Origin: Willaertia magna
Lineage: Eukaryota; Heterolobosea; Eutetramitea; Acrasida; Naegleriidae
Reading direction: 5' to 3'
Length of the DNA stretch: 10,564 bases
Assembly: GCA_902984215.1 (NCBI GenBank)
Contig: CADWAF010002672.1
Coordinates: 1-10,564, forward strand
In this document: piece by piece, positions 4-10,564 of the stretch
How the letters are laid out: every line of letters starts with the position of its first letter
Numbering within the stretch: position 1 is the first letter of the stretch
Notes under the pieces: model-generated
Seen by the model: only the letters and a program-made list of their open reading frames with translations
What the model was told of the DNA's origin: nothing
The model's database searches: none
Translations under genes and position numbers: made by a program

Positions 4-3000
4 TTAATTAAGTTTTTTAAATTCTGCATTGTTTGATTGTACGTATTTATCTAAGAAATTCTTCAAAATGTTGTTTTTAACAAGGTCAATGGCCTTATTG
101 AACATGTTTTGATCCGCTTCTAACACTTTAGTTTTCACAATACGTTCTTCAAAACCAATGTTGACAGGATGAGTTGCTTCCCCAGAAGAATCAATAAAGA
201 TATCATAAATTTGTTGCGCTAATTTCTTTCTAATAGTAGTGTCCTTAATAGATTTGAAGTGGAATTGAACACATTCAATAAATAGTAAAGCATTGAAAGC
301 TTTTTCGTCATTATTAGTGAGGGCAAATATTCTCATTTGTTCTAAAATCTCACGTTTGCAAAGCATTTGTTCAGCAGAAACCAATTGTTTTGGTTCAAAT
401 ATTTTCTTGACAACCTTCTTTTCTTCATTTTCTGACAACACTTCATAAATATCTTTACTGGCATCTTGTTTAATAACTGTTTTCTTCTTGAAGCTGATTT
501 CTAATGGTTTAGGTATTTTCTTTAATTCATAGTTCTTATTATTGATATCATTAAGCAATCCCTTATGCATTGGAGGAGGTTTAATTCTTGGAGTTTCTTC
601 CATTCCTCTTGGAGTTTTTGGTGGTGCAACATAAATATCATCTTCAACAGGTTTGTATCCCTTTTCTGTCACTAATTCAACAAATGGTTTATCTTTACTT
701 GCAAATTGAATATTCATTTTCATTGAGTTTCTTTGACCTGGGGTTCTTGGAGTTCTAGGACTTGAAGATGTTCCAACATTTGTTTGTTCTTCATCATGTA
801 ATCTCTTTTCTTTCAAACCCTTAATTGCCATAATACCCTTCTTATTAGAATCAACATCTTTGGTGTCAATTATTCCTGGACCAACAGGTGGTACATCTTC
901 TTCTATTAATTGTTTAGTAGACTTTTGATTTTGGACTGTCTTCTTAGGTAGGAAATCATCATCTCCAAGGTCAAGTAATAATGTTTCTTCTTTAACAGTA
1001 ATTTCCTTCTTGGATTCTGCTCTCTTCTTAAAGTGACCAGCTCTCTTTCTTTCTCTAATAACCCTCAATAATGATGCGCGGCCATCCTCTTCCTTCTCTT
1101 CTTCTTTTCTTGGGACAACATGGAATTTAGGTTGTTTAACTGGTGACTCAGTTACTTCAATTATCTTTGTTGGAGGAGGTGGTATAACAGGCTTGTTGAC
1201 AACAACTGGTTCAACATTTCTTGGGGTGGAAGTTTTAGGTGCTCTTGGAGTTGGAAGATATTCATCGTCACCCATTACGAAAGGTGAAATATCTTCTTCT
1301 TCATCTGAGGAAGAGCTGTCCTCTACAATTCTTGGCTTTCTTGGAAGACCTCTTCTTTCTCTGACAGCCCTCAATAAAGAAGAGCGACCTTCATTATCTT
1401 CTTCTTCACTATCGTCTTTTTTAACATCTTTCTTTTCTTCTCTTGGACTAAACATATCTTGGTGTGTTGGTTTCTTCTCACCTCCAGCTTGTTTTTTCTT
1501 TCTAATAAGACTAAGCATAGATTTACGACCATCTCCATCATCAGTATTTTCACTCTTTTCACTTTTTGGACTTGTTAAAGTGTTATTATCTTTCTTTACA
1601 GAACCAACATCAATCTTTTTAACAGACTCGCCTCTTTTTCTACGAATAATACCTAATAGTGCAGAACGACCCTCATCATCTTCATCATTTTGTTGTTTGT
1701 TTTGATTGCTTGAACTTGTTGTAGAAGAGGAACCAACAATGGAGGAATTGGAAGGATTAATTTTGTTTAATAAACCTGTTCGTCTTAGGTTTGCCCTGGC
1801 TCTTATTAACGCTAAGAAAGAAGTACGTCCATCTTCATCTGGGTCAAACTTCTTCACAGGTTTTTCAACTGGTTTCAATTCAACTTGATCTTTGTGTGGA
1901 ATTATGTTCTCTTTTTTACGTTCGAAAAATCCTTGTTGTTTTCTAAGTCTAATGAGTCTAAGGAATTCTTGACGTCCATCAAGTTCTTTTTCGGTGTCAA
2001 CATGTCTTAAAACTACCTTTTCATTTTGTTCTTCAACTGTTAGTTCTTTTGGTTTTTTAACAATCTTAAATCTTCTTCCTTGTTCTTCGGGATTGTAGGT
2101 TATCTTTGTAATCTTGGCTGGCGGTGGAGGAATGTAAGGTTCTTGTTTCTTTGTTACGTCCTTACTTGGAATAACAGGTTCTACATAGTTATTAACAGTA
2201 GGTGGATAGTCCGTGTCATTATTGTTGTTAACTTCATTCTTTGTTCCTTGTTCTACATGTCTTAGAGAAGTACCATTATTATCTTGGGTTGGACTTGGAT
2301 CACGTTGTTGAACGTTTTTCTTTCGCACAGCGTCTAGGAATTCTTGCTTTCCGTCCTTCTCTTTGTCAATAGCAACTGTGGACACTGTTTTTGTGTCTTT
2401 AATTTCATTTTCATTTGGTTTTTCTTGCTCATCTTTGGTTTTATCTTCAGTTTTAATGTTATCTTCTTTCACAACTACTGTTTCAATATTTGGAGTTGGT
2501 TCAGTTTGATTTGACTTATTTTCTTCATGCTTGACTTTGTTTTCTAGAATCAAGTCGTCCTCAATGTTTGTATTATCTATAGATTGTTTGTCGTCTTTTA
2601 CAAGATCTCTTACTTCATTATTTTCTGTTGAGGTAGTGTTGGTATTGTCTTCGAATTCAACTACAATATCATTGACATCAGTAATGTTGTCAACTTGATT
2701 TGTTTGTTCTTCTGACTCAGGTTCCTTTACAACTGTAGGAGTTTTGTCTGTATGCACATTTATAGTGACATTAAGTAATTTAGGCTTCTTCTTAGGAATG
2801 ATTGGTTCTGTAATGTTTGACTGTTGGGCAGAAGAACTATCTTGTGTATCATTTGTATCAATACCTGATAATCCGGCGGCGTCGAGTCCATCACCATCAG
2901 TAGTAGTTTTTGGTACGTTGTCTTTAGGCTCATCTCTAGGTTCCTCCACTTCTTTTTGTTTCTCTGCTTCAAGTCTCAATCTCTCTTCTTCTTCTTTTTT

Positions 3001-6000
3001 AAGACGTTCCTCTTCTTCTCTTTGGCGGCGTTCTTCTTCTTCTTTTTTGATTCTTTCTTCCTCTTTCCTTAATCGTTCCTTTTCTTCTTCTTCTTTGATA
3101 CGTTTTTCTTCCTCCTCCTTAAGACGCTTTTCTTCTTCTTCCTTGAGACGTTTTTCTTCTTCTTCTTTGTTCTTGTCAATTATTACAGGATTATCATCTG
3201 TTGTTGGTTCTACGGTAGGCATTGGTGGTTCCTCGATAATAGGTGGTTTGTCGAAAGTAGGCTTAATCCATTGTGATTCTCCTGTTTCTGAGTTGAAGTA
3301 ATAGTACTCACCATAAATTTCATCATAGTGCTTTGTCCATCCAGGTGGTAATTCTTCTTCAATTGGCTCAGTTGGCTCAATTGGTTCAGTTGGAGTAAGT
3401 GGTACTGGAACTGGTTCATCTTTTGGATCCACAGATTCAATTGGAACAACAGGTGGGCTATACATCTTTGTCAAGTACATTTCATTTTCTGTTATTGCAA
3501 CATACATTAGGGAGAAAACTGTTCTAATGAGAACGATGTCAATTATAAAGGCAACAAACCAAGCAAAGAACCATTGTTGTGTATTAAATGGGAGGGTATA
3601 CGTTGTAATAGCACCTGATCCACCAACCAATGATAATATAACACAAATAATAATCCATGCAAAGGAAATAATGTACCCAAAGAATTGTGACTTAGTACTC
3701 TCATGACTAAAGAGAATAAGTAAGGCAATTTGAACAACCCAAGCACAAGGTAATGAAATAATAACACCAATTATAAACAACCAAGAGTAATTGTAAGATC
3801 CATAAATAATTGCATTGACCATTACCAAACTCTCAAGCATGACTGCAATCATCAACAAACGAGATGTTCTTGAAGGGCTTCTAAAATTGAATTTAGGATT
3901 AAATACAGTACCTAGATATAAATGATGTCTCTTAAAACCGTCTAAAACTCTGTCAACTAAAGGTAGCTTGGTGTAGCTAATGTAAGGATCAATAAAGCTT
4001 TCTTCTTCTTCACTTTTAACTCTATGTTTAATATGATAAAATATAGAAATAGCCATCAAACAAGCGAATATGGCAATAATGGCACAGTTGACAAATGCAA
4101 CAATAGCAATGGCAGTTTCGTAACCAAATACAACAGGTTCCACAATTGGTGGGAGTGGAGTTGTTAAAACACCAAATGTAGTTGTATGGTCACAAGAACA
4201 AACAAATGATGAGCTATCATGTGAAATGTATTTACAACCAGTAGGTGACCATGATGTGTAGGTGGAATTGGATTCTAAATAAACACATTCTGGTTTTAGT
4301 AAGGTATCTGTCTTACTTGGTATAATGGAAACATTCAGATCCATTTCTCTAGCAGATAATGTGGTTGGAATTGTAAGTATGATTGGGTCTGTCAGAGACT
4401 TGAGTTCAATCTTTTGTAAAGTAGATGGATCTAAAAGCTTAAAATCAATTTGAGTACTTGAAAGTGTTTGAGAGGCGTTATCTGACTGGGGGGCAACTGA
4501 TAGTTGTTTTAGGTAAACTACAACATAGTCGGTTGAAATACTTAAAGTTGATGGAAGTACAACACTGACTTGTGAGGCAAGCTCAAATGTTTTACCAGCT
4601 ATTTGATTCACAGGAGACCTTTGGAATAATACTTCATGAACCTTTAATTGTCTTACATCTGAAGGTTTAATCAATTTACTATAAATAGTTTCCCAAAGAG
4701 ATACAGCTTCAGGAAGAGGGGAAAGGGCTAATCTTTTTCCATCATTCGAAACTCCTGTTCCAATCTGTTTTAAAACAGTGTACAATACATTCAAGTTGTC
4801 CATTCCAACAGTCCTCATAAATTTCTGTTCCTTAGAAATGTAGGCATAGTTATAAACTGCATTGTTTGATTCTGTTGTTGTAATACGAAATTCATTTAGT
4901 AATACTTGAATATATTGTTTTAAGTTAACAAATAATGCTTGCAGTTGAGCTTGAGTGAAACCTGTTAATATCTTGTCCATTGGAGAAATGTTGAATAATT
5001 GTGACAAAATAAGTAAGCTCTCAGTAGGTCCTTGTAAATTACCAACTCCTGAATTACTAGAAATAAATGAAGTAGATGAATAAAACTTAAACAATAAATC
5101 AAATAAATCGCTGTAATAAGCAACTATTTTGTTTAAATTTGCATCAGAAATTTTTCCATTACTTTCTACATAAGTAACAAACTCTGCTAACGTATCAGCG
5201 CATAATAAAACCATTGATGGTGTTTGGAAATATTTGTACTTTGTTGGACTGTTTATAGTAGCAATAAGGGAGTCAATTGTAGATAAAATTGTGTTTAGTT
5301 GACTATCAAAATTATTTGCACCTGTCAGTATGTCCCCCACATCCACCTTAATACTTCTTATAACAGAATCAGTGGCTATTCCATTGCTTGAATTAGAATA
5401 AATATTTAGTGAATAAGTCCCATCAGATTGAAGAACACCAATAGGAAGTCTCAAAAAGTAGTCAGTAATATAACCACTAGGTATTCCAGAAGAAATGTAA
5501 AGATATTGTCCATTGGTAAGTGATAAAGTCTTTCCTGATTTTGTAATGGCCAAGTGAATACCAGAATCCGCACTTACCATAACGTGCCTGGCCGTAATTT
5601 CATCAGACATCGACTTAATATTATCTGTTGAACCAATAAATCTAGCAGAAGTAATGAAAGGAACTACATAAAAAGTGGTAAATGAATATTCCATTTGAGA
5701 GAGCCTTGTAGTTCCAAAAAATCTTACTACACACCTAATCACATACTTCTTATTTCTCTTTAAGTATGTCGATGGAATTATAATTGTCTTGGTTGTTCCA
5801 AGAGCGATGTTGCTAGTAGCATCTGTCCAGCTATAGGCAAAAGTTCTTCCTGATACTGGTTCCATAACAGCTGTTAAAATTACATCATCTGTGAATGGAT
5901 GGTATAAATCCATTAGAATGTTTGAATCAATTCTCAATATTCTTGGGTAATCTGTATCTTGAAAACTAGAAAAAATTTCGAATGTCTCTGAATTAGCAGT

Positions 6001-8200
6001 ATAATAATCTCCAAGCTGATAAAAAAGGTTAAGATTAAACTTTGAAGCAGAACTACCTTTGTTTGTTAAATCTATCTTATCACAATTATTAGTTAAAAAT
6101 GTTCCCTCGTTAGCCATGTTAAGGCAACCTAATAGAGAACCAGCAGAATTTACATAACTGCATGTCCATCTACATTTAGGTACTGCCAAGCTCACTTCTG
6201 AAGTAAAGGAGGTTGAATATCTCACCACATTAATATCATAATATTGAATTTTTGAATAAACAAACAATCCATTAGATTGTGGCGGTATCTTTTGATTTCT
6301 TCCCTGAATAGAAATACTTGATGACAAGGCGTTTACTGTGACTGGAATTGTTTTTCTTGTACGAAATATTATAACATTTGTGTGAGGGTTTCTTCCAACC
6401 ATAGTTGCAATAACGTCAAAAGAAGCAGAGTTTAATAAGGTACCACCAGACAAAAATATAGTTTCAGGGTATTGAGAAATTCTTAATACAGGATGATCTG
6501 TCACAAGGGCTTGCTTCGAGTTAACAAAGGTTTGATTAGTGCTTAAGATTTCTGCTCCTCTCCACTCATACTTTATGTCAATCCCAGGGTACTTACTGGT
6601 AATAGAATAATCTTCTTTCACAATTATTGGAATAATTAACTCATTATTTGTATATACATTGGCAAAGTTTGGAACAGATATTTCTGGAGCACATTGTGGC
6701 TTTAGTGAACTACAATTACCCGTAGAATAGTAGCAAGTATTAGATTCACTTGGACAAGCACATAAATCTGTACCATAACAAGTTCCTCTTCTTTCATCAC
6801 ATACATTGGAATGTTCGAAACCATATCCAAAGCAAGAAATCTTATGGTACGCAATTATAGCATTAGTTGTACTAGTTGCAACGATAGTATTAATACTTCC
6901 ATCCGCAATAATTTTCTTTGGAGCAGTAGAATAACCACTTGTTGCTCTACCAAATGTGTAGAGGTTTCCCCAATTACTCTTTAAAACTGTAGAAACAGTG
7001 GAGGCAGCGGTTTCCACTATATATTCACCTTTTGAAACACTCCATGTTTGGTCAACCAATCCAAGGGCATAATAAGAAGCTCTGGAGCTTGGCACTGCAT
7101 TACCTAATAATAGTACAGCTCCCACAGAAAATACTCTTCCACGATTTGTCAAGAAAATTGTATGATCATTTCCAGAAGATACACTTGTAAACACTTCTCC
7201 ACTTTGTAAAGTAATTCCATTTGTTGATAATGCTGCTATTTTTCTTATTTGTTGTGGTGTGACAACTGGAAATACATCACCACTTATTCCAATACCCAAT
7301 CTACCATTTCTATTATCTCCAAACGTGTAAATATCAATTCCATTTTGATCAATTAGAAAAACACTGTCAATACCGCAGTGAATAGATTTCATAGTACTTG
7401 GTAAATTTATCGCCGTTCGTTGTTCATGTAATAATTGAATTAAAGTATTATCATTTAATAATAAAAAACTATCTTTTCCGGTACTACAAATATCAACAGG
7501 ATAAGCTGAAGGATTAGTTAAAGAAATAGTTGGAAGTCTTGTAGGTTGAGAAAGAAAATATCTACCGGATACACCAGTTTGTTCTAAAGCTAATTGTTGT
7601 ACTTCTGCATTAGAAAAACCTAATCCACCATTATTTAAAACATTAGTACCAGTTACAAATAATTGATAAGGTTCCATATTTCCTTGTTCATTAGCACTAG
7701 CTAAAATTAAAGTATAACCATCTCCAGGTACTACTTTCTTTACTCTTCTATTTGAATTAGCATTAATCTTTAAATCACCTCGATCCGATAAATATCTTGG
7801 TGATAAATTCATATTATTATTTGCTACATTATTATCATAGGCTAAACCGAGCTGTAAATTATTATTTTTTGTATTTAAAAAATTAGGCTTATTTTAAATA
7901 GAAGAAGAAACTTACCTGACCAAGAGAGTTATCTCCAAATGCTGCTAATTGATAATCTTTTGTTAATATAAAACCTGAATATGATGTTGGACTATTTACA
8001 TTTCCAATAATGATCTTATCTATTACTGGTGAAAGAGAAACTGTTCCGTCGGCATTTGAAACTACCGAAAATAAAAATTGGGGAATTTGAATAGAATATG
8101 AAAGAGTTGGACGTGTTGATGTTCCTATATATTGTCCATTATTTACAAAGATATCTAAAATACCAACCAATTCAAATGGAAAGTAGAGTTTAAAAGCCAC
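4..8200 (-). CDS. Giant RCC1-GPS-5TM-WW-WH2-RGS membrane protein; join(4..7851,7916..8200), 5' end incomplete
   Basis: Two open frames join at a clean phase-0 intron to give at least 2,710 codons, ending in TAA at 6-4. I do not recognise it as a named gene. Order of parts, numbered from the Met at 7812: RCC1-like propeller (exon 1 to about 326), Cys-rich EGF-like segment (327-374), REJ/GAIN-like region (about 500-1175), GPS motif (1176-1217), five hydrophobic helices (1234-1440), Pro-rich linker, WW domain (1487-1519), E/K/R rod (1549-1624), seven WH2-like repeats (1820-2263), WH2 (2418-2433) and RGS (about 2490-2592). Five helices with an extracellular GPS put the C-terminal tail of about 1,160 residues in the cytoplasm. 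Many N-x-S/T sites lie before the GPS. The likely role is a surface receptor or adhesion protein linked to actin and G-protein signalling; this is inference from domains. Exon 1 has no in-frame ATG (its open frame begins after a TAA at 8212-8210), so the start and any signal peptide are missing from this model. Confidence 0.85.
37..345 (-). other. RGS domain (regulator of G-protein signalling)
   Basis: Residues about 2490-2592, close to the C-terminus at 2602. Recognisable blocks in order: FNALLFIECVQFHFK (helix with the LLF core), KKLAQQIYDIFID, HPVNI, R2557, then N-M-F-N-K-A-I-D-L-V and L-K-N-F-L-D-K-Y. These match the RGS fold's ENLLFW, A-x-x-IY-x-x-F, VNI, F-x-x-A-x-x-x-V and F-L-x-S-x-x-Y positions. 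RGS domains speed GTP hydrolysis by G-alpha. The Asn of VNI is kept; the Asn of the ENLLF block appears shifted or replaced, so GAP activity is uncertain. Confidence 0.8.
511..564 (-). other. Near-canonical WH2 motif
   Basis: Residues 2417-2434 read KGLLNDINNKNYELKKIP. L2419-L2420-x-x-I2423 followed by L2430-K-K-I is the full WH2 signature (LLxxI ... LKKV/T), with six residues between Ile and LKK where five is common. It lacks the leading DGR of the array copies, so it is a separate actin-monomer-binding candidate, about 60 residues before the RGS domain. Confidence 0.65.
1105..1188 (-). repeat. IPPPP module, copy 2
   Basis: Reads VIPPPPTKIIEVTES, then P-V-K-Q-P-K-F-H-V-V-P-R-K, and is followed within 20 codons by the seventh WH2-like copy. 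The match to copy 1 extends well past the Pro run, so the two are a duplicated unit and not chance Pro tracts. It fills the double-length gap between WH2-like copies 6 and 7. Confidence 0.7.
2056..2136 (-). repeat. IPPPP module, copy 1
   Basis: Reads YIPPPPAKITKITY, then N-P, Q and R-F-K-I-V-K-K. It shares with copy 2 (1105-1188) the frame I-P-P-P-P-x-K-I-x-x-[IV]-T-x-x-P...Q...[RK]-F-x-[IV]-V and, like it, precedes a WH2-like copy. Short Pro runs next to WH2 motifs are typical binding sites for profilin, SH3 or EVH1 partners; that role is inferred. Confidence 0.7.
2941..3168 (-). repeat. E/K/R-rich single-alpha-helix rod encoded by GAA-rich tandem repeats
   Basis: 76 residues (1549-1624) consist almost only of E, K, R and L in short units such as EEEEKRLK (three near-identical copies, then variants KEEERIKK, EEEERRQR, EEEERLKK). 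At DNA level this is a run of degenerate 21-24-nt repeats, (TTC/TCT)n on the plus strand. Alternating acidic and basic quartets allow i to i+4 salt bridges, the pattern of stable single alpha-helices (ER/K rods), although a coiled coil is possible. As a rod of 76 residues it would be about 11 nm at 0.15 nm per residue and would hold the WW domain away from the actin-motif array. Confidence 0.85.
3258..3354 (-). other. WW domain
   Basis: Residues 1487-1519 start ELPPGW and contain the tyrosine block EYYYFN, the turn S-E-T-G-E-S and Q-W-I-K-P. The two signature Trp are W1492 and W1515, 23 residues apart as in typical WW domains, with the conserved P1518. WW domains bind short Pro-rich ligands (PPxY, PPLP or phospho-Ser/Thr-Pro). 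It follows a Pro-rich linker with repeated E-P-I-E/T-E-P units (about 3345-3459) right after the last membrane helix. Confidence 0.93.
3493..4113 (-). other. Five predicted transmembrane helices, polycystin-1-like core
   Basis: Hydrophobic helices lie at about residues 1234-1259, 1318-1338, 1344-1368, 1377-1397 and 1413-1440. The loop between the first two is about 58 residues and rich in charge, too short for a PLAT domain. Its end and helix 2 (S-R-T-S-R-L-L-M-I-A-V-M-L) resemble the 'R-x-Q-R-L' entry into polycystin-1 helix 2. Helix 5 has an I-D-I-V-L-I-R-T-V-F pattern like the polycystin core. With GPS outside, an odd number of helices leaves the C-terminus inside. No six-helix channel unit follows. 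Confidence 0.75.
4160..4290 (-). other. GPS motif (GPCR proteolysis site)
   Basis: Residues 1176-1217 carry C1176, W1188, G-C1193, then C1205-S-C1207-D-H1209-T-T-T-F-G-V-L. This is the four-Cys GPS pattern with the C-x-C-x-H-x-T-x-F-x-V-L ending just before the first membrane helix. In known GPS sites autoproteolysis occurs between the residue after His and the following Thr/Ser. Here the triad is H-T-T rather than the usual H-L-T/S, so cleavage is possible but not assured. Confidence 0.88.
4291..6330 (-). other. REJ/GAIN-like ectodomain region
   Basis: About 680 residues lie between the Cys-rich segment and the GPS. They include beta-rich stretches with paired Cys (CRWTCSYVNSAG) and a W/Y strand pattern (FAYSWTDATSN ... 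YVIRCVV) like REJ/PKD-type modules of polycystin-1. Then come several amphipathic helices (DSQLNTILSTIDSLIATI; LNKIVAYYSDLFDLLFKF) and a beta-rich part leading into the GPS, the order expected for a GAIN domain. N-x-S/T glycosylation motifs are frequent. Assignment is by pattern and by position before GPS and helix 1; boundaries are rough. Confidence 0.5.
6691..6834 (-). other. Cys-rich EGF-like segment
   Basis: Residues 327-374 hold eight cysteines: C327, C338, C345, C351, C353, C360, C367 and C374. The C-x-C pair (351, 353) and the spacing C-x6-C-x5-C-x-C are EGF-like. It directly follows the RCC1 propeller. A full EGF module cannot be assigned with certainty because the glycine pattern near the end is poor. 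Confidence 0.65.
6850..8140 (-). other. RCC1-like beta-propeller region of the giant protein
   Basis: Repeated blade signatures appear on both sides of the intron. FGDNSLGQLG spans the splice junction, TGTNVLNNGGLG and FGDNRNGRLGIG follow, and later blades are more degenerate (FSVGAVLLLG; LYTFGRATSG). Each is preceded by the usual short 'S/H-x-hydrophobic, T-x-G' strand, for example DHTIFLTNRGRVFSVG. About six to seven blades are plausible, enough for a closed propeller. The region lies before the membrane helices, so it is extracellular or lumenal, unlike nuclear RCC1, and is more likely a ligand-binding or adhesion module than a Ran exchange factor. Confidence 0.8.
7852..7915 (-). other. 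Spliceosomal intron, 64 nt, phase 0
   Basis: On the minus strand the donor is CAG|GTAAGT (GT at 7915-7914) and the acceptor TTTACAG (AG at 7853-7852). The interior is AT-rich and holds in-frame stops. Removing it joins ...FGDNSLGQ to LGLAYDNN..., which restores the RCC1 signature G-x-N-x-x-G-Q-L-G exactly. The 13 codons between the acceptor and the Met at 7812 stay open. A model that starts translation at 7812 would therefore lose a propeller blade. Confidence 0.93.
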
Positions 8201-8261
8201 TTCGCTTTGTTAGTTTGATCACAATAATAATCAATTAAAAAAATTAATTTAACATTAACCA
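8201..8261. promoter_or_regulatory. Short AT-rich divergent intergenic region
   Basis: This 61-bp gap separates the first coding base seen in the giant gene (minus) from the ATG of the CBS gene (plus). It is strongly AT-rich (runs of A and AATTAATTT), so both promoters or 5' leaders must lie here or overlap the neighbouring coding sequence. On the minus strand it also holds candidate splice acceptors for exon 1 (AG at 8206-8205 and 8201-8200) and an ACTAAC string at 8214-8209. No defined promoter element can be named. Confidence 0.45.
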
Positions 8262-9239
8262 ATGTCTTCCCATAGAAATCCAGTTTATGAATATTTCCAC
8301 AACATCCAAGTTAGTGATCTAGTACCATCAACCAGACAACTAGTGACTGTAAAGGTTGACACTACTTTACAAGAAGCAGTCAAGGTTCTTTCTACAAATA
8401 AAATTCTTGCAGCACCAGTTTTAGATAGTGGAGATAAATTAGCTGGAATGTTGTCAGTATTAGATATTGTTCAATACATTGTTTCAGCTGCACCAAACAG
8501 TGACCAACTTAAAGATATTGACCAAGTTGAAATTGCAGGGCGTTGCATCACTTTACACCCTGTTAAACACATTATGGGAAAGTCACAAAAAGATCAGTTA
8601 GTTCCACTTAAAACAAATAATGCTTCAACTTTTGCAATTGACTTAATGGCAGCAGGTTTGCATCGTGTTGTTTTAGAAAGCGACATTGCTTCTGATAAAT
8701 TAACAAATACACTTTCACAAACTGATATTGTAAAACGTTTAGCAGATCATTTACACATGGGTAAATTAAAGGTTGTTGGTGAAAAGTTAGTGGAAGAATT
8801 GGGTATTGGGCTAGTTGAACCTATCACTGTCACAACAAAAACTATTGTTTTGGATGCAATGAAGAAATTAGCTGAGAATAATGTTTCTGCTGTAGCTGTT
8901 GTGGATGAAAATGGAAAATTAGTTGGAAATATGTCAGCAAGTGATCTTAGAGGTTTTTATCTTGACAGATTACCACATTTTGAATTGACAACAGAAGAAT
9001 TCTTAAAGAAATATTCCCCAACTTCATTATCACCATTTTCAACAAAATTAAATAATTTAACTTTATTAGATGTTGTACGTAAATTAGTTCATCCAACAGT
9101 AGTTGTTGATGGCAAGGAACAAAAATTAGAACATTCAATGCATAGAGTTTGGGTTGTTGATGATGAAGGCAAATGCAAGAGTGTTATTACTTTAACTGAC
9201 ATTATGAAAGTAATTAGAGATTTAGATTACCAAGTTTAA
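8262..9239 (+). CDS. Four-CBS-domain protein, SNF4/AMPK gamma-subunit-like
   Basis: A complete 325-residue intronless frame. The ATG at 8262 follows an in-frame TAA (8256-8258) and has A at -3 and purine-rich surroundings; the stop is TAA. Four CBS motifs make two Bateman modules: about 18-76, 108-166, 183-240 and 258-323. Each ends in a strand-Asp-helix (LD68I, TD155I, SD228L, TD313I), the Asp that contacts ribose in AMPK gamma. CBS2 and CBS4 keep the His-Arg pair (H134-R135; H294-R295) of gamma subunits that contacts nucleotide phosphates. The length matches yeast Snf4 (322) and human gamma1 (331). Expected role: adenine-nucleotide sensing within a SNF1/AMPK heterotrimer in cytoplasm or nucleus. 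In CBS1 the usual Arg before AAP is Leu (NKILAAP). Plant-type PV42 SNF4-like proteins are the main alternative. There is no link in function to the flanking RCC1 genes beyond position. Confidence 0.85.
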   Translation: MSSHRNPVYEYFHNIQVSDLVPSTRQLVTVKVDTTLQEAVKVLSTNKILAAPVLDSGDKLAGMLSVLDIVQYIVSAAPNSDQLKDIDQVEIAGRCITLHPVKHIMGKSQKDQLVPLKTNNASTFAIDLMAAGLHRVVLESDIASDKLTNTLSQTDIVKRLADHLHMGKLKVVGEKLVEELGIGLVEPITVTTKTIVLDAMKKLAENNVSAVAVVDENGKLVGNMSASDLRGFYLDRLPHFELTTEEFLKKYSPTSLSPFSTKLNNLTLLDVVRKLVHPTVVVDGKEQKLEHSMHRVWVVDDEGKCKSVITLTDIMKVIRDLDYQV

Positions 9240-9282: not shown

Positions 9283-10564
9283 TTATTTTAATTTTCTTTT
9301 CTTTTCAGGTATAAAACAATTTGATTCTTGAACTATTGTAATATCCGTCAATAAATTATCTCTTGCTTTTTGTAAACATTGTAATTGGAAGGAATCATTA
9401 TCATTTACTTCATTAATTTTATAATTTGTAGCAAACATAAAATACTCTGTTGGAAATATTAGTAAATGTATAAATCTTAAATCTGTTTTAACGTAATTAA
9501 TTTTTGTAAATCTATTATAATTGTATTCATTTGAATAACTTTGATTCATTCCATCTAATTTACAACATTGTTTATCAATACCCAGTTGACCATACGTAGT
9601 ATTACCAGAACCATACAATTCATTATCCATTGTACATAAAATATTATTTATACCTAACGATTTAAATATATTTTTAACTTTAATATCATTATTATCAATT
9701 ATAATTTTTGTAAAAATATTTCTATCATTAAAATCTCCTAATCCTAATAATCCAGATTCATTATGTCCAGTTCCAAATAATTCATTAAATTCATTAATTA
9801 AAATAACTCCTAAAAAATTACAAACTACTTTCTTAACTTTAAATGATAAATTAATTTTTGTAAATTCATAAACATTTCCATTGTAACCTAATCCTAATTG
9901 ACCAAATTGGTTATTTCCAGTACCATAAATAATACCATTGTAATCTAATAAAATAGAATGTGAATAACCACATTGTATATCTTTTACATTTATATTTTTT
10001 AAATAATTTATTTTTGTAAATTTAATTAATCTATTCATATTTTTATTTAATCCCAATTGTCCAAGATCATTATTTCCAATCCCATAAATATTATTATTTT
10101 GTGTTACAAAAAAGAAATAATTATACCCACAAGTAATTATCTTAATCTTTTCATTGATATCTGTTTCTATTTTTGTAAAAATATTAACCTTCCTAATTCT
10201 ATCATTTAAACCAAAACAATTAAAACCAGCACCAAACATCTCATTCTTATCATTTAAAATTATAGAGAAACTATAACTACAATCTAAGCTCTTAATATTC
10301 CCAATATTAAGTTTCTCTATAGCTTCTACCTTTGTAATCTCATGTTCAATGCTGTCATCATTACCTGTACCTAATTGTCCGAAATAATTTCTACCATAAG
10401 CATAGATTTCATTATCTTTTGTAACAATTAAGAAATGTGTCATTCCATTCTTTACAAATTTAATTTTTTTATTAAATTTAATTTTATTTATTGCAGGCAA
10501 CGTTTCTTCTTCTAAATTAATGTTAGTATTTTCATATGAGGTAAAGTCACATTCATAATCAACC
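9283..10564 (-). CDS. RCC1-repeat protein, 5'-partial at window edge
   Basis: The frame is open from the right edge (first whole codon 10563-10561) to TAA at 9285-9283, giving 427 visible codons including the stop. The apparent start at 10500 is a TTG with open frame before it, so the true start lies outside. Six RCC1 blades can be read: AYGRNYFGQLG, GAGFNCFG (lacks the GQLG end), GIGNNDLGQLG, GTGNNQFGQLG, GTGHNESGLLG and GSGNTTYGQLG. A seventh strand pair may lie near EYFMFATNYKINEV. Five of the linkers between blades carry an F-T-K-I block. RCC1 propellers act in Ran exchange or as binding platforms; the exact role is unknown. The C-terminus (LLTDITIVQESNCF) resembles the first strands of a BTB domain but stops about ten residues later, after KKRKLK. 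The coding sequence is visibly richer in A/T, Lys, Asn and Ile than its neighbours. Confidence 0.88.
   Translation of the reverse strand, partial: VDYECDFTSYENTNINLEEETLPAINKIKFNKKIKFVKNGMTHFLIVTKDNEIYAYGRNYFGQLGTGNDDSIEHEITKVEAIEKLNIGNIKSLDCSYSFSIILNDKNEMFGAGFNCFGLNDRIRKVNIFTKIETDINEKIKIITCGYNYFFFVTQNNNIYGIGNNDLGQLGLNKNMNRLIKFTKINYLKNINVKDIQCGYSHSILLDYNGIIYGTGNNQFGQLGLGYNGNVYEFTKINLSFKVKKVVCNFLGVILINEFNELFGTGHNESGLLGLGDFNDRNIFTKIIIDNNDIKVKNIFKSLGINNILCTMDNELYGSGNTTYGQLGIDKQCCKLDGMNQSYSNEYNYNRFTKINYVKTDLRFIHLLIFPTEYFMFATNYKINEVNDNDSFQLQCLQKARDNLLTDITIVQESNCFIPEKKRKLK

Follow-up and report, generated by a model that had tools for sequence, protein, structure and literature searches.

A GPS-bearing receptor-like protein of Willaertia magna with a WW domain, WH2-like helix repeats and a degenerate RGS fold in one reading frame

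A minus-strand gene of Willaertia magna (family Naegleriidae, sister of Naegleria) combines, in one reading frame, an RCC1-type ectodomain, a GPS motif, five hydrophobic helices, a WW domain, a charged rod, seven repeats resembling the helix of WH2 domains, and an RGS fold. Our analysis directly supports the one-frame architecture, the GPS, the WW domain, the RGS fold, and the presence of repeats that resemble the WH2 helix. The explanation that we tentatively prefer, with a confidence that stays just short of even, is an adhesion-type GPS receptor whose tail scaffolds actin and whose RGS-like end probably does not act as a GAP. What would be new is the unusual combination of a five-helix core unlike 7TM cores, a WW-rod-repeat tail, and a degraded RGS domain.

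Positions refer to the window, which is the whole analyzed stretch of 10,564 nucleotides and forms a complete 10.6-kb contig (C497) in a genome set of 894 contigs and 19.2 Mb. According to the available parts of the respective papers, the published W. magna C2c maky assembly has 36.5 Mb (PMC6892926) and W. magna T5(S)44 has also been sequenced (PMC11702301). The 19.2-Mb assembly examined here may be partial, or may come from a strain other than C2c maky. The features of the receptor gene are collected in Table 1.

Table 1. Features of the receptor gene, arranged along its reading direction
Feature	Position	Strand	Basis or remark
5' exon	7916..8209	-	open frame, no Met; encodes N-terminal stretch of RCC1-type ectodomain
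Intron	7852..7915	-	64 bases, GTAAGT...TTTACAG; read from sequence
Main exon	4..7851	-	frame open from 7893; stop codon 4-6
RCC1-like propeller	6922..7866	-	residues 10-324 of 2,629-aa frame; PF25390, RCC1
Cysteine-rich EGF-like segment	6658..6840	-	by eye against EGF repeats of relatives
Probable GAIN region, GPS at its end	4144..5406	-	boundary by eye
GPS motif	4165..4293	-	Pfam profile
Five hydrophobic helices	3487..4137	-	residues 1253-1469, downstream of GPS
WW domain	3259..3351	-	PF00397, 44.2 bits vs cut-off 26.9; 51.1 in another scan
Glu/Lys/Arg-rich rod	2929..3174	-	charge-pair pattern
WH2-like helix repeat 1 (weakest)	2320..2352	-	
IPPPPAK proline motif 1	2113..2133	-	
WH2-like helix repeat 2	1945..1977	-	
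WH2-like helix repeat 3	1798..1830	-	
WH2-like helix repeat 4 (best match, GRSALLGIIRR)	1639..1671	-	
WH2-like helix repeat 5	1498..1530	-	
WH2-like helix repeat 6	1357..1389	-	
IPPPPTK proline motif 2	1165..1185	-	
WH2-like helix repeat 7	1051..1083	-	
WH2 candidate MHKGLLNDINNKNYELKKI after PPP	511..570	-	
RGS-fold domain, degenerate on G-alpha face	34..372	-	Pfam, genome-grown profile, PDB

Ectodomain and GPS

The initial annotation placed an RCC1 propeller, an EGF-like segment, and a GPS ahead of the membrane helices. The whole-protein Pfam scan confirmed the propeller: the RCC1 repeat model passed its cut-off (33 bits vs 21.7), and the RCC1-like propeller model PF25390 matched under its own (62.2 bits vs 150). 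The cysteine-rich segment is EGF-like by eye, and there is no Pfam EGF match in the receptor protein. The GPS was confirmed at 38.8 bits against a Pfam cut-off of 22.5; it is the top-scoring of the seven GPS places in the genome, and four Cys, the Trp, and the His-x-Thr are present. The expected GPS cut lies between HT and T in the window receptor and between HL and T in another GPS protein of the genome (C402), so that the residue ahead of it is Thr and Leu, respectively. The probable GAIN region contains an LTDPIILT-type strand that by eye resembles that of a further GPS protein, C654.

Relatives with GPS and RGS

Five of the seven GPS places in the genome have an RGS match in the same frame (the window, C218, C654, C416, and C93). 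The GPS frames of C402 and C754, the latter seen only as a 265-aa frame, have no RGS match. C100, a close relative of C93, has an RGS domain and a GPS-like stretch that is visible by eye and unlisted by Pfam. The GPS of C93 and C416 scored 25.4 and 30.4 bits, respectively, in the genome scan; the whole-protein Pfam scans of these two (E <= 0.1) listed RGS and not GPS. By Pfam, the ectodomains of C218, C416, and C93 contain RCC1 and EGF, that of C100 contains EGF only, and that of C654 neither. Seven hydrophobic peaks were counted in C218, C654, C416, and C100, and six in C93, and in these relatives too the RGS domain lies downstream of the membrane core. In the genome as a whole, matches at exon level (E <= 0.001) were found at 79 RGS, 8 REJ, 2 PKD_channel, and 55 G-alpha places.

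In Naegleria fowleri, the available text of PMC9283941 describes 28 7TM-RGS proteins, a number of them with a GPS and several with EGF. Given these GPS-bearing proteins and the GPS-RGS frames of W. magna, a single chain with both GPS and RGS is nothing new. The initial annotation, which knew of no described protein with all of its domains, is thus superseded for this pair; for the full set, searches of the openly licensed PMC literature listed no protein with GPS, RGS, WW, and WH2-like repeats, and the closest system among the papers considered is that of PMC9283941. The main text of a choanoflagellate GPCR paper (PMC12716839), in its available part, contains no WH2, WW domain, or polycystin term.

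Among public proteins, with candidate length limited, a search of 2,592 candidates gave two WW-sharing proteins and no orthologue, and no orthologue was present among the best 7,989 candidates by shared words. The window's own protein was not returned either, though at least one W. magna protein is present there; its gene model may be missing from the protein database, split, or outside the length limits.

The five-helix membrane core

The five hydrophobic helices after the GPS bear out the five-helix core of the initial annotation. If the GPS is outside, five helices place the tail in the cytoplasm. A single-sequence AlphaFold model of the core has five long helices and one further helix at low confidence, and the models of the helix core and the RGS end are both poor (pLDDT 49.7 and 40.8).

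We looked for a seven-helix core related to the 7TM-RGS family and found five peaks, with a likeness to that family not above shuffles. The window core scored 41-57 against C93, C416, C100, C218, and C654, and between 22 and 336 of 400 shuffles did at least as well; its score against C402 was reached by 11 of 400. The 7TM cores of the other relatives scored 264-1267 against C100, with shuffle maxima of 106-298. Besides the window itself, a search of the same genome gave no relative of the helix core or of the repeat tail at E <= 1 (1 and 8 candidates scored, respectively).

The label polycystin-like found no statistical support in NCBIfam, the PDB search, or pairwise shuffles. The score of the window core against TM2-3 of polycystin-1 (PC1) was reached by 351 of 1000 shuffles with BLOSUM62 and 476 of 1000 with BLOSUM45, and that against TM4-5 by 814 and 712 of 1000, respectively; the C218 core outdoes it against TM2-3 (22 of 1000). 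An ungapped PC1 TM2 stretch found its best match in the whole frame at RTSRLLMIAVMLESLVMVNAIIYG (score 25, reached by 20 of 5000 block shuffles), and a stretch of C93 scores higher, at 30. Neither REJ nor PLAT was listed by Pfam at E up to 10, a range in which the HMMER filters drop most matches above about 0.1. The core is polycystin-like in layout; a kinship with polycystins is suggestive.

The clearest polycystin-1-like protein seen in the genome is C402 (L026 546-8861, minus strand), with a LamG-EGF-REJ-GPS order and ten hydrophobic peaks; it is identical to the W. magna hypothetical protein ABK040_005501 (100% over the 613 residues compared). The 3' parts of two of the eight REJ places, C802 and C732, showed no likeness to the window core, and by eye their REJ frames each end in a single hydrophobic stretch.

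WW domain, rod, and proline motifs

The tail opens with the predicted WW domain and rod, both confirmed, the first by its Pfam score and the second by its charge-pair pattern. Over 90 residues from residue 1574 the rod consists of 42% Glu, 20% Lys, and 14% Arg, and 48 of 86 i,i+4 pairs in this stretch are of opposite charge; it is likely a single alpha-helix. The IPPPP modules are present as well, as IPPPPAK and IPPPPTK.

Two other proteins have parts of such a layout. P0001 (EukProt g2502.t1), another protist membrane-type protein with a WW tail, is a CD36-domain protein whose tail has several WW domains and repeated proline/TPKGFR motifs. In the 816-aa frame of C744 (L035 4280-6727, minus strand), a single WH2 match of 18.8 bits, below the cut-off, comes after a long stretch rich in Glu, Lys, and Arg, a rod-plus-WH2 layout without a receptor.

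Seven WH2-like helix repeats

The pattern [DE]G[RK]xx[FLM]Lxx[IV]R occurs seven times in the tail; in 2,000 shuffled versions of the tail it occurs 0.0005 times on average. For a scored comparison we built a matrix of the WH2 helix and an HMM from nine WH2 stretches, five solved and four genomic. In the matrix ranking, the repeats have the amphipathic helix xxLLxxI(R) of WH2: they take ranks 1-7 of 2,619 positions with scores of 10.5-19.0, and the eighth position scores 6.4. Each of the nine training WH2s, when omitted in turn, scores between 10.7 and 31.1; both of those with the top value contain the same N-WASP helix and so are not independent. This range holds six of the seven repeats, with repeat 1 just under it (10.54 vs 10.67). 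Four positions in six related proteins reach 7.5, and the top one, 11.1 in C402, exceeds repeat 1. When the background is derived from the tail, six repeats hold ranks 1-6 and repeat 1 drops to rank 8, overtaken by an ectodomain stretch; in 500 shuffled tails with this background, the best single score was 16.2 and the seventh-best never rose above 5.2.

The likeness is confined to the helix half. After the repeats, the LKK(V/T) half of WH2 is missing from its expected place, and scores for it are mostly at background level: the best LKKV-like scores there range from -3.1 to 4.3, compared with 7.7-12.0 for the nine training WH2s (in-sample) and a 95th percentile of 5.1 for random tail pieces. 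With the profile HMM of the nine WH2s, the best repeat scored below zero, at -1.1 bits when the tail was scanned and -2.6 bits for the whole frame, and Pfam matched no WH2 in the receptor, whether the whole protein or the tail end alone was scanned. That the repeats are plain Pfam WH2 domains is ruled out by the absence of a Pfam match and the negative HMM score. When a profile of the repeats was compared with 177,635 PDB sequences, the best match was the tandem W repeats of N-WASP, at a non-significant E = 0.079. Of the separate WH2 proposed after the array, the LKKI half stands and the rest does not: LLNDINNKNYELKKI has a good second half (7.7) and a poor helix half (1.88, rank 32 of 2,619), and this LLND...LKKI candidate has no Pfam or PDB match. 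Domain searches find GPS and RGS together and no Pfam WH2, and the proposal that the protein gathers actin monomers would draw on the WH2 helix half, the only half present.

A plainer reading, possible though somewhat doubtful in our view, is that of an ordinary heterolobosean GPS-RGS receptor with a long disordered linker for a tail; its DGRxxLLxxIR repeats would then be amphipathic helices of basic character, with membrane, calmodulin, or a formin-like partner as their target in place of actin. The strongly basic sequence after the helices would suit it, as do the lack of an LKKV half and of any Pfam or positive HMM evidence for WH2, and GPS plus RGS frames are common in the genome; the position of six repeats inside the WH2 leave-one-out range with polyproline nearby speaks for the actin scaffold instead, and a membrane core no closer to 7TM-RGS cores than shuffles sits poorly with ordinary membership.

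A degenerate RGS-fold end

The RGS domain of the initial annotation is retained as a fold. The Pfam RGS model (cut-off 23.9) gave 19.6 bits in the whole chain, below the cut-off, 27.1 bits with the end scanned alone, and 26.9 bits in the genome scan. A profile trained on RGS10 and on RGS domains of this genome, with the window domain in none of the training alignments, gave 25-27 bits when the domain was scanned alone; in its first form, scanned over the whole frame, this profile did not find it. The top PDB match is RGS10 (E = 0.0018).

The G-alpha face was read at five contact positions of the RGS4-G-alpha structure, RGS4 E87, N88, N128, D163, and R167. The alignment comprised 68 sequences: the window, RGS10, and 66 other domains drawn from the 79 places of the genome at one per frame, with short, weak, and repeated matches dropped. 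The window domain keeps one of the five residues, N128, the alignment of the first two positions (the E-N motif) being uncertain. Among the 66 genome domains, all five residues are present in 24, four in 14, three in 9, two in 16, and none in 3, and C218, C654, C416, C93, and C100 all have five of five. From the aligned residues, the RGS-like end is probably not a GAP, and with most contact residues lost, the earlier suggestion that the protein ends G-alpha signals finds no support.

It seems improbable that the domain is a working GAP that would couple an actin scaffold to local shut-off of G-alpha: fewer contact residues are found in only three of the 66 other domains, and five relatives have the complete set. 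In its favor are the RGS fold, the kept key Asn (N128 in the RGS4 numbering), and the many G-alpha matches in the genome, at 55 exon-level places. A further point in its favor comes from N. fowleri, where RGS domains of 7TM-RGS proteins act as GAPs (PMC9283941, available text; three were tested, and the authors doubt one pairing).

Gene frame and 5' end

The minus-strand frame runs from 7893 to 4 over 2,629 codons without a stop and is preceded by the short 5' exon; the 64-base intron between them splits an RCC1 motif, and its removal joins ...GDNSLGQ and LGLAYDNN in frame. Third-position GC is 0.10-0.27 throughout (14 blocks of up to 200 codons each), and the third position has the lowest GC of the codon in 12 of the 14 blocks, the exceptions being the final two, around the RGS domain. 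The open frame, this codon-position pattern, and single-frame relatives that likewise combine GPS, helices, and RGS support one chain, in agreement with the single continuous frame of the initial annotation, and a single transcript would be expected. The frame contains five donor-like GTAWGT strings (donor side only scored), at which an internal intron may lie. A joining of two genes, by assembly or a missed intron, from a GPS/five-helix receptor and a WW/WH2-like/RGS cytoplasmic protein is very improbable, since the stop-free frame with its low third-position GC and the relatives with RGS after the membrane core outweigh these donor-like strings, the missing start, and the absence of the protein from the matches in a database that contains W. 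magna protein.

No convincing start codon was found for the receptor; there are three weak candidate first exons, all beginning in antisense of the first coding bases of a neighboring CBS gene. As no Met precedes the 5' exon, the N terminus is missing together with any signal peptide, and no convincing signal peptide was found. The CBS-domain gene (8259-9239, plus strand, three matched Pfam stretches) is head-to-head with the receptor gene; with the CBS start codon at 8262, the 5' end of the receptor gene has a space of about 50 bases. A second RCC1-propeller frame (9283-10563, minus strand, 426 aa, 162.1 bits) is open at the contig end, and no membrane helix was seen in it by eye.

Proposed mechanism and significance

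In the adhesion-type receptor with an actin-scaffolding tail that we prefer, the RCC1 propeller and a GAIN/GPS of the adhesion-receptor/polycystin-1 kind would lie outside the cell, the GPS probably self-cleaved, and five helices would cross the membrane. The WW domain, rod, polyproline, seven WH2-like helices, WH2 candidate, and RGS fold would lie inside. Contact at the putative cell-surface location would alter the GPS/helix core and bring a scaffold that binds or nucleates actin to that site. The stiff rod may hold the repeats at a distance from the membrane, the WH2-like helices and the polyproline would recruit actin or profilin-actin, and the RGS-fold end could dock a partner or bind G-alpha while lacking normal GAP activity; a signaling role is predicted. 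A bolder version, which we regard as unlikely, makes the protein a five-helix GPS receptor of the polycystin type and an actin-assembly scaffold at once: surface contact would put a seven-fold array derived from WH2 directly in place, and a pseudo-RGS would capture or sense G-alpha and not switch it off. In that version, a single protein would lead from adhesion to actin in a free-living amoeba.

For animals, it has long been asked how adhesion receptors and those of the polycystin-1 type communicate with G proteins and with actin. There, a separate protein provides the RGS link: the PC1 tail binds G-alpha and RGS7, according to the available part of PMC9672506. A fusion of GPS core, WH2-like array, and RGS fold would wire these functions into one chain and offer a testable system outside animals. 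The genome also provides a natural experiment, as the G-alpha face of the RGS domain is intact in five 7TM relatives and decayed in the window receptor.

Comparison with known systems

The tail resembles tandem WH2 proteins of the WASP/WIP/Spire type in its tandem GRxxLLxxIR-type helices with polyproline nearby; it differs from them in that its repeats are without the LKK(V/T) half at the usual place and stand in a membrane receptor. With the polycystin-1 family the window receptor shares the succession of a GPS, one helix, and further helices, the GPS being assigned by profile and the GAIN by eye only, as well as an RxxR...NAxxYG motif in helix 2 that was noticed after the fact; unlike polycystin-1, the window receptor has no REJ or PLAT match and no channel half. 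C402 (P0003, ABK040_005501) and the window receptor both have a GPS and a KxHHxY stretch ahead of helix 2, whereas C402 has REJ and ten hydrophobic peaks and no RGS, WW, or WH2 match.

The N. fowleri 7TM-RGS proteins with GPS and the W. magna proteins C218, C654, C416, C93, and C100 are like the window receptor in having a large ectodomain, a GPS (by eye in C100), helices, and a C-terminal RGS domain. These relatives mostly have a seven-peak core and intact contact residues, in contrast to the five helices and degenerate RGS domain of the window receptor, which is also set apart from them by its tail of WW domain, rod, and repeats.
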